Assembly: GCA_003331265.1 (NCBI GenBank)
Contig: QOPV01000004.1
Span: forward strand, 1 to 64,000
DNA: 64,000 nt
Reading direction: 5' to 3'
From: Cryomorphaceae bacterium
Lineage (GTDB): Bacteria; Bacteroidota; Bacteroidia; Flavobacteriales; Flavobacteriaceae
Below the pieces are notes generated by a model. That model did no database searches and was not told the origin of the DNA. It saw only the letters and a list, made by a program, of their open reading frames with translations. The translations under genes and the position numbers were made by a program. This document shows, piece by piece, positions 25,384 to 49,714 of this stretch (position 1 is the stretch's first letter; each line of letters begins with the position of its first letter).

Positions 25384-25415
25384 AAAAAGGGAAGATTAAA
25401 ATCTTCCCTTTTTTT
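25382..25415. terminator. Bidirectional intrinsic terminator between convergent uvrB and hsp20
   Basis: AAAAAAGGGAAGATT-AA-AATCTTCCCTTTTTT: perfect 9-bp core stem flanked by A/T tracts. Confidence 0.9.
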
Positions 25416-25837
25416 TATTTCTTAACACTAATTATTTTTTTAGTAACATTTTGAAATTCCTTTCTTTTAGGAAGTGTAATTGAAAGAATTCCATTTCTAT
25501 AAATAGAGTTAATTTTATCAGTATCAATTAAATATGGTAATTCAAAAGATTTTTCAAAAGAAGAAAATTCAAACTCTTTAATATTATAATTATAATCTGT
25601 TTGTTCTTTTTTATTTAATGTAGAAATAGATAGAAGTCTATTTTCAATTTCAATTTGAAAATCTTCATTACTTTTTCCTGGTGCAATAACTTCCAAAACG
25701 TACTCTTTATCATTTTCTTTAACATTAAAAGAAGGATTATAAAAAGAATTTTGAGGAACATTTATATCCCAATTATTTTTAAAAAATTGATCAAAAAATA
25801 ATGGAAATAAAGATGATTGTTTTTTAATTAAGTTCAT
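25415..25837 (-). CDS. Small heat shock protein, Hsp20/alpha-crystallin family
   Basis: PSFNVKENDKEYVLEVIAPGKSNEDFQIEIENRLLSI ... YRNGILSITLPKRKE. Confidence 0.93.
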   Translation of the reverse strand: MNLIKKQSSLFPLFFDQFFKNNWDINVPQNSFYNPSFNVKENDKEYVLEVIAPGKSNEDFQIEIENRLLSISTLNKKEQTDYNYNIKEFEFSSFEKSFELPYLIDTDKINSIYRNGILSITLPKRKEFQNVTKKIISVKK

Positions 25838-25891
25838 AATGTATATTTTAAATTAAACAAATTTTTAACAATTTGAATTATACAAAATGAG

Positions 25892-25923
25892 TACCAAAGA
25901 ATTTATAATGACAAAAAGTCATT
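25892..25923 (-). promoter_or_regulatory. Shared chaperone-upstream motif (hsp20 copy)
   Basis: Minus strand reads AATGACTTTTTGTCATT-ATAAAT-TCTTTGGTA; same blocks and spacing as upstream of htpG. Confidence 0.6.
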
Positions 25924-47774: not shown

Positions 47775-47806
47775 AATGTCAATTTGTCATTGATTAATCT
47801 TTGGTA
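47775..47806 (+). promoter_or_regulatory. Shared chaperone-upstream motif (htpG copy)
   Basis: AATGTCAATTTGTCATT-GATTAA-TCTTTGGTA, 33 nt upstream of the htpG ATG; matches the hsp20 copy. Confidence 0.6.
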
Positions 47807-47839
47807 TATCATTTGATTTCTAAAGGAAAAACAATTATT

Positions 47840-49714
47840 ATGGCAAAAGGTAAAATTAATGTATCAGTTGAAAATATATTTCCGTTAATTAAAAAATTTC
47901 TCTATAGTGATCATGAAATATTTCTTCGCGAATTGATTTCAAATGCTACTGACGCAACATCAAAGCTTAAACACCTGAGTAGTATAGCAGAAAATAAAAT
48001 TAAAATTGATAACCCAATTATTGAAATTAAAGTTGATAAAAAAGGTAAAAAATTACATATTATTGATCAAGGTATTGGAATGACATCTGATGAAGTAAAA
48101 AAATACATTAATCAAGTAGCTTTTTCTGGAGCTGAAGAATTTTTGGAAAAATATAAAGATTCCGCAAAAGATACAGGAATTATTGGTCATTTTGGTCTTG
48201 GTTTCTATTCAGCTTTTATGGTTGCTGAAAAAGTTGAAATAATTACTAAATCTTATAAAAACGAAAATGCCGCCCATTGGATATGCGATGGTTCTCCAGA
48301 ATACTCTCTGTCTAAAAGTAATAAAAAAGATAGAGGAACCGAGATTATTTTACATATAGACAAAGATTCCAAAGAGTTTTTAGAAGAACAAAGGATTAAA
48401 ACTCTTCTTTCAAAATATAATAAGTTTATGCCTGTTCCTATTAAATTTGGAACTAAAGAAATAACTAAAAAAGAAGGTGAGGGTGATAATGAAAAAGAAA
48501 TAAAAGAAACAGTTGATGATATTATTAACAATCCCAATCCAGCATGGACAAAGACTCCCTCAGAACTAGATGAGAATTCTTACAAAGAATTTTATAGAGA
48601 ATTATATCCTATGCAATTTGAAGAACCTCTTTTTAATATCCATTTAAATGTTGATTATCCATTTAATCTTACTGGAATACTATACTTTCCTAAAATTTCA
48701 AATGATATAAATGTTCAAAAAGACAAAATTCAACTTTATCAGAATCAAGTTTTTGTAACCGATAATGTTGAAGGCATTGTTCCTGAATTCTTAACTCTTT
48801 TGAGAGGAGTAATAGATTCTCCTGACATTCCACTAAATGTTTCTAGAAGCTATTTACAGGCTGATGGAGCTGTAAAAAAAATAAGCAATTATATTACCAG
48901 AAAGGTTGGTGACAAATTAAATTCCCTTTTCACTAAAGATCGTAAAGAATTTGAAAAAAAATGGAATGACATAAAAGTTGTAATTGAATATGGGATGCTT
49001 AGTGAGGAAAAGTTTTATGACAAAGCTCAGAAGTTTGCTCTTTACCCTACTGTAAATGAAGAATTCTTAACTTTTGAAGAATTAAAAGAGAAAATTTCTA
49101 AAACACAGACTGACAAAGATGGAAAATTAGTTGTTCTTTACGCTTCAAATAAAAACGAACAACACCCATATATTGAAACTGCCAAAGTAAAAGGATATGA
49201 AGTTTTATTACTTGACTCTCCTATAATTAGTCATCTTATACAAAAGATAGAAACTAGTAATGATAAAATTACATTTTCAAGAGTAGATGCCGATGTGATT
49301 GATAATTTAATTAAAAAAGAGAGTGAAGAAATTTCTAAATTAGATGAAAAACAAAAAGAAAAACTAAAATCAATCATTGAAGAAACTGTTCCAAAAGAAA
49401 AATATACAGTTCAATTAGAAGCGATGGATAGTAATGCTGCACCATTTATAATTACATTTCCAGAATTTATGAGAAGAATGAAAGAAATGCAACAAAGTGG
49501 TGGAAATAGTATGTTTGGCAATATGCCCGAAATGTACAATTTGATTATCAATGTCAATAATCCAATAAACTCAGAAATACTAAATGCTAAGAACAAAGGA
49601 AAAAAAGAAAGGTTAATTAATCAATCTTTAGACCTAGCAAAATTATCTCAAAACTTATTAAAAGGAGAAGATTTAACCTCTTTTATTAAAAGAAGTATAG
49701 ATTTAATTAAATAA
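47840..49714 (+). CDS. htpG: Molecular chaperone HtpG (Hsp90)
   Basis: FLRELISNATDATSKLKHL, DQGIGMTSDEV, GHFGLGFYSAFMVA; start at MAKGKINVSVEN. Confidence 0.96.
   Translation: MAKGKINVSVENIFPLIKKFLYSDHEIFLRELISNATDATSKLKHLSSIAENKIKIDNPIIEIKVDKKGKKLHIIDQGIGMTSDEVKKYINQVAFSGAEEFLEKYKDSAKDTGIIGHFGLGFYSAFMVAEKVEIITKSYKNENAAHWICDGSPEYSLSKSNKKDRGTEIILHIDKDSKEFLEEQRIKTLLSKYNKFMPVPIKFGTKEITKKEGEGDNEKEIKETVDDIINNPNPAWTKTPSELDENSYKEFYRELYPMQFEEPLFNIHLNVDYPFNLTGILYFPKISNDINVQKDKIQLYQNQVFVTDNVEGIVPEFLTLLRGVIDSPDIPLNVSRSYLQADGAVKKISNYITRKVGDKLNSLFTKDRKEFEKKWNDIKVVIEYGMLSEEKFYDKAQKFALYPTVNEEFLTFEELKEKISKTQTDKDGKLVVLYASNKNEQHPYIETAKVKGYEVLLLDSPIISHLIQKIETSNDKITFSRVDADVIDNLIKKESEEISKLDEKQKEKLKSIIEETVPKEKYTVQLEAMDSNAAPFIITFPEFMRRMKEMQQSGGNSMFGNMPEMYNLIINVNNPINSEILNAKNKGKKERLINQSLDLAKLSQNLLKGEDLTSFIKRSIDLIK

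Follow-up and report, generated by a model that had tools for sequence, protein, structure and literature searches.

The 64-kb window analysed here (the whole stretch of DNA, 64,000 nucleotides) contains two chaperone genes, hsp20 and htpG, whose upstream regions share a spaced 32-nt motif. This raises the question of what the motif is, which other genes carry it, and what might act through it.

The motif shared by hsp20 and htpG

A sequence-only reading of this DNA had placed the two 32-mers at 25892-25923 (hsp20) and 47775-47806 (htpG), and these positions are correct. Our recount likewise gives 24 of 32 positions identical, the dyad AATGAC-N5-GTCATT is indeed perfect at hsp20 with one mismatch at htpG, and both genes had been named correctly (PF00011; the NCBIfam HtpG model above its cut-off). 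Without mismatches, TTTGTCATT-N6-TCTTTGGTA occurs at only two places in the window, and with up to 3 mismatches it is seen 3 times where 0.34 are expected by chance. Across the genome's whole assembly (G000; 1.53 Mb, 43 contigs, 80% complete), the 22-mer core is perfect only at these two sites, the next best match having 2 mismatches. The looser pattern TGTCATT-N6-TCTTTGGTA with 3 mismatches is too unspecific, giving 54 matches in the assembly against 27 for its reversed control.

Two blocks stand out as conserved when the htpG upstream regions of relatives are aligned: TGTCA-N3-TGTCA, and TTTGGTA with TTTGA after it, with a gap of 12 bp between the blocks. In its spacing the second block matches a sigma-54 -24/-12 element. 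The bases conserved overall are TGG-N1-A-N6-TTG and TGNCA-N3-TGNCA, and the element is kept before htpG in nearly all of 28 upstream regions read. Counted relative to the sigma-54 element, the site upstream of it spans -51 to -39, is centred at -45, and lies 12 bp from the TGG at -24. The two 9-mers with a 6-nt spacer that were first described are identical, but they are not the meaningful units; they cut across TGNCA-N3-TGTCA, the 12-bp gap and TGGTA-N6-TTG. Nor is the dyad AATGAC-N5-GTCATT the true operator; it is one form of TGNCA-N3-TGNCA, which appears as TGTCA...TGTCA at most htpG genes and as TGACA...TGACA at grpE. In the window, the parts are as follows.

25415 to 25837, minus strand: hsp20, a small heat-shock protein of 140 aa (Pfam PF00011, E 1.2e-17)
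25870, minus strand: predicted transcription start of hsp20, from sigma-54 geometry, 12 nt downstream of the -12 base
25882 to 25896, minus strand: predicted sigma-54 -24/-12 promoter of hsp20, TGGTACTCATTTTGT, GG-N10-GT, 12 bp from the upstream site
25909 to 25921, minus strand: predicted proximal upstream site of hsp20, TGACT-TTT-TGTCA, one mismatch to TGNCA-N3-TGNCA, predicted centre -45
47777 to 47789, plus strand: predicted proximal upstream site of htpG, TGTCA-ATT-TGTCA, predicted centre -45, conserved in relatives
47802 to 47816, plus strand: predicted sigma-54 -24/-12 promoter of htpG, TGGTATATCATTTGA, GG-N10-GA
47828, plus strand: predicted transcription start of htpG, from sigma-54 geometry, with a 5' leader of about 12 nt
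47840 to 49714, plus strand: htpG (Hsp90; NCBIfam NF003555 HtpG, 645.6 bits against a cut-off of 371)

Target genes, breadth and spacing

We scanned the genome for TGNCA-N3-TGTCA-N12-TGG with at most one mismatch, using the reversed pattern as control. The scan returned 8 matches and the control 0. Five of the eight lie directly before dnaK, htpG, groES, hsp20 and grpE-dnaJ, so that the search before other chaperone genes suggested by the sequence-only reading recovered dnaK, groES and grpE-dnaJ besides the two original sites. The other three have no chaperone gene downstream and look intragenic; since composition alone predicts 2.4 one-mismatch matches in addition to 0.05 perfect ones (about 2.5), they are at chance level. 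About 115 nt ahead of its start codon, the lon gene (on contig C1) carries a good -24/-12 element, TGGCATGAATCTTGA, but where a TGNCA pair would be expected there is no clear one. No clpB was found in the assembly (80% complete), and a scan for AAA proteins gave ClpC, whose upstream region is without the pair. Separately, TTTTTTTAAACCCTCTTTGGTA is identical at G000:C16:20-41 and G000:C28:59-80, near contig ends, and is probably a repeat at which the assembly broke.

The sigma-54 -24/-12 consensus is TGGCAC-N5-TTGCW, with GG at -24 and GC at -12 and N10 between them. GG-N10-G is present at all five promoters of this genome (hsp20, htpG, dnaK, groES and grpE), and the last base of the -12 is relaxed: GC occurs only at grpE, with GT at hsp20 and GA at htpG, dnaK and groES. 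A symmetric site is also common to these promoters, as TGNCA-N3-TGNCA at htpG, dnaK, grpE and hsp20, and further upstream at groES. These observations bear on the proposal that the motif is a housekeeping sigma-A promoter, with TTTG at -33 and TAnnTTTG at -7, overlapped by a dyad operator. TTTG and a TTTG-ending -7-like sequence are indeed present at both hsp20 and htpG, but the right half has sigma-54 -24/-12 spacing, and starts in Flavobacterium psychrophilum map to the sigma-54 motif (PMC9723704). We reject the -33/-7 assignment as very improbable, since those hexamers are lacking at dnaK and grpE although the element is kept there (TGACATTTTGACA-N12-TGGCAGTACTTTTGC), the -33 TTTG being missing at both. 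The earlier view that the motif resembles neither CIRCE nor a sigma-32 promoter is borne out, as neither matches the conserved element; by inspection, the CIRCE repeat TTAGCACTC-N9-GAGTGCTAA is absent from the chaperone upstream regions read.

For breadth, the layout plus the -12 (17 fixed bases) was scanned against one genome per species in 85,462 species, which gave at least 120 matches. Of the 120 matches listed, 119 are from Bacteroidota, among them Flavobacteriales, Cytophagales, Sphingobacteriales, Chitinophagales and Bacteroidales; the single exception among those listed, a Phycisphaerales MAG, lacks a chaperone gene at that place. A readable gene follows 113 of the listed matches, and in 106 it is htpG (75), dnaK (16), grpE (8), hsp20 (5), a Clp ATPase (1) or lon (1); other genes among the matches listed include clpP in Flavobacterium croceum. 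The 12 bp were built into the scan pattern, so these counts speak to genes and organisms and not to a preference for 12. On this distribution the element is phylum-wide and not local to the genome in which it was first seen, and chance similarity of the two original sites is rejected by the scans of this genome, of spacing and of all species. The fact that the two-part switch stands before most major chaperone genes across Bacteroidota makes it look like their heat-shock-type response switch. The idea of an operator plus an alternative promoter for a chaperone regulon is thereby supported at the sequence level, by its recurrence before groESL, dnaK and grpE-dnaJ and in relatives.

Two side observations come from the same matches. 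The -12 dinucleotide is GA, not the textbook GC, in 74 of 106 of the matches listed, and predictors trained on GC would miss many GA-type promoters. In Mucilaginibacter the composite element precedes a thioredoxin gene (four matches among those listed), which suggests a lineage-specific addition to the regulon.

In 61 genomes of the family we also let the gap vary from 2 to 30. It was 12 in 29 matches and 13 in 8, and every other bin held about 1-2. The 12/13-bp matches with readable neighbours stand before htpG and once before dnaK. Because many of them are orthologous htpG promoters, the upstream regions of dnaK and grpE were read as well, with no spacing constraint. Read in the same unconstrained way, htpG orthologues have the pair at 12-13 in 24 of 26 regions. 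At dnaK the pair, mostly TGACA-N3-TGTCA, lies 12-13 from TGGCATAATCATTGA in 28 of 30, and at grpE TGACATTTTGACA lies 12-13 from TGGCAGTACTTTTGC in 23 of 28. The same distance is thus found at unrelated promoters. At groES a half site lies at exactly 12 in 22 of 31 promoters, with the full pair mostly at 42-45 bp, about three helical turns beyond the proximal register; in G050, a relative with a complete 345-kb genome, the groES pair is at 23, one helical turn further. In some families outside this one the -24/-12 is accompanied by a single half site at about 20, which is the outer half's register, and in certain more distant families no clear pair goes with the -24/-12.

These positions also help to decide whether the pair could instead bind a repressor, RprY-like or another heat-labile factor, that holds a sigma-54 promoter off until stress. 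The upstream site abuts the promoter, and RprY of Porphyromonas gingivalis binds the groES, dnaK and clpB promoters and was interpreted as a repressor (PMC3646045). However, the groES sites are displaced upstream by full turns of the helix, as would be expected more of an activator than of a blocker, and a sigma-54 promoter needs an activator anyway while no other shared site was seen. We consider a repressor unlikely. RprY itself is an unlikely binder of the TGNCA pair, as in P. gingivalis it failed to bind the promoter of htpG (PMC3646045), and htpG is the commonest carrier here among the matches listed.

The candidate activator and a proposed circuit

One RpoN is encoded in this genome (PF04552, 165.8 bits), and rpoN is present in 12 of 12 genomes tested. 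The assembly contains two full bEBPs, EBP1 and EBP2. EBP1 (415 aa) has a PF00158 AAA+ domain at residues 14-180 with GAFTGA, a long linker at residues 262-374, and a Fis-type HTH_8 domain at 375-410. With AAA+ and GAFTGA, a C-terminal HTH and no N-terminal sensor domain, it has the make-up of group 4, and the assembly's other full bEBP has no recognised HTH. It does not reach the cut-off of any named NCBIfam bEBP model listed; identity with PspF is rejected at 266 bits against a TIGR02974 cut-off of 443.55.

The locus reads miaB-EBP1-lptE-TPR-secG-groES-groEL, where we take the names miaB, lptE, TPR gene and secG from recognition of their sequences. EBP1 is nearly universal in the order. Orthologues are present in 56 of 58 relatives, with the linker unaligned in a few; the exceptions are G006, where only a piece lies at the edge of a contig, and G013 (51% complete), which is without both EBP1 and groES. 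In 47 of 57 genomes no more than a few kb separate EBP1 from groES, and the conservation of EBP1 is 0.91 in the HTH, 0.92 in the AAA+ domain and 0.64 in the linker. From gene content and linkage, EBP1 is the best candidate for the activator that would bind TGNCA-N3-TGNCA.

The second bEBP has a location of its own.

G000:C41:22827-23993, plus strand: EBP2, just after grpE-dnaJ, 388 aa, receiver (REC) plus AAA+

Could EBP2, as a response regulator, or several bEBPs bind the site instead? EBP2 lies about 3 kb from grpE-dnaJ in this genome, and larger relatives have 3-8 bEBPs. However, no HTH domain was found in EBP2, and its loop reads GAFTSA in place of GAFTGA. EBP1 is moreover the single bEBP match in G050, G037, G046 and G051, and the chaperone genes of the first three still have -24/-12-like promoters. 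A bEBP other than EBP1 is thus quite unlikely. EBP2-like open frames of about 388-405 aa match in most relatives.

In G050, a genome of the same order in which no bEBP besides EBP1 was found, rpoN, dnaK, grpE and miaB-EBP1-secG-groESL are kept, and the upstream sites are recognisable though degenerate. The retention of rpoN, EBP1 and groESL in 345 kb suggests that this circuit is among the last to be lost.

We propose that the sites are two-part promoters of a sigma-54 heat-shock (proteostasis) regulon with EBP1 as its proximal activator, and give this reading a probability of about 0.74. The genomes themselves show the two elements and the fixed distance between them, which genes are targets, how these features are conserved, and that rpoN and EBP1 are present. 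For sigma-54 control of htpG, dnaK, grpE-dnaJ, groESL, lon and clpB there is support from the published F. psychrophilum starts (PMC9723704). Hypothetically, sigma-54 (RpoN) RNA polymerase would bind the -24/-12 element TGG[T/C]A-N6-TTG, and a dimer of the sensor-less EBP1 would occupy the TGNCA-N3-TGNCA site, the centre of which is at -45. With only 12 bp separating this site from the -24, and always on the same face of the helix, the EBP1 hexamer would form next to the closed complex and use ATP to remodel it, so that the DNA would need to loop little or not at all. Since EBP1 is without a sensor domain, the signal, unfolded protein or chaperone level, would be sensed in trans; sensor-less bEBPs are under the control of a partner in trans (PMC7175178), which by analogy makes chaperone titration a reasonable idea. 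We infer that EBP1 binds the site, that binding activates, that the signal is of this kind and that heat induces the genes. Several points go against this explanation: the -12 is usually GA, groES has only the proximal half, no clear pair is present at lon or in some more distant families, clpB is missing from the incomplete assembly, and a bEBP would not usually act from -45.

Comparison with known systems

Sigma-54 control of these chaperone genes is already published and is not new. A map of transcription starts in F. psychrophilum places sigma-54 (SM4) starts at groESL, lon, dnaK, grpE-dnaJ, htpG and clpB (PMC9723704), and in a 2025 prediction chaperones are over-represented among the sigma-54 targets of Flavobacteriia (PMC12316311). 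The promoters described here share their sigma factor, targets and -24/-12 with both. The 2021 F. psychrophilum paper leaves the activators open (PMC9723704), and the TGNCA-N3-TGNCA site, the 12-bp distance and the acting bEBP are absent from the main texts of PMC9723704 and PMC12316311; in the open-access literature we came across no account of the fixed proximal site or of an activator for it.

Like the enhancers of NtrC, NorR and PspF, the upstream site is short and symmetric, suited to an HTH dimer, and helically phased. The usual bEBP site, however, lies 100-150 bp upstream and needs looping (PMC7057263), whereas here the centre is at -45 with a fixed gap of 12-13 bp, and groES has a further pair one to three turns upstream. 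A fixed 12-bp gap would be an unusual sigma-54 architecture, in which the activator adjoins the polymerase and does not work from an enhancer far away, and such a proximal arrangement could help structural work on bEBP-polymerase complexes. EBP1 resembles the group 4 bEBPs PspF and HrpR/S in having AAA+ plus HTH and no N-terminal sensor (PMC7175178), but differs from PspF in its long linker and in its linkage to groESL instead of psp genes.

Chaperone switching in Bacteroidota has been poorly settled; in P. gingivalis no CIRCE was found, and the authors of that study supposed that another mechanism operates (PMC3646045). A cis-element, a sigma factor, a candidate activator and a regulon can now be named. 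Compared with CIRCE/HrcA and sigma-32 control, the class of target genes is the same, but the CIRCE repeat and the sigma-32 hexamers do not match. More tentatively, at somewhat less than even odds, we hypothesize that heat shock in Bacteroidota is run by a dedicated phylum-wide sigma-54 system, in which a groESL-linked sensor-less activator would act from a fixed proximal site without looping and its activity would be set by free chaperone, forming a third main logic beside sigma-32 and HrcA/CIRCE.
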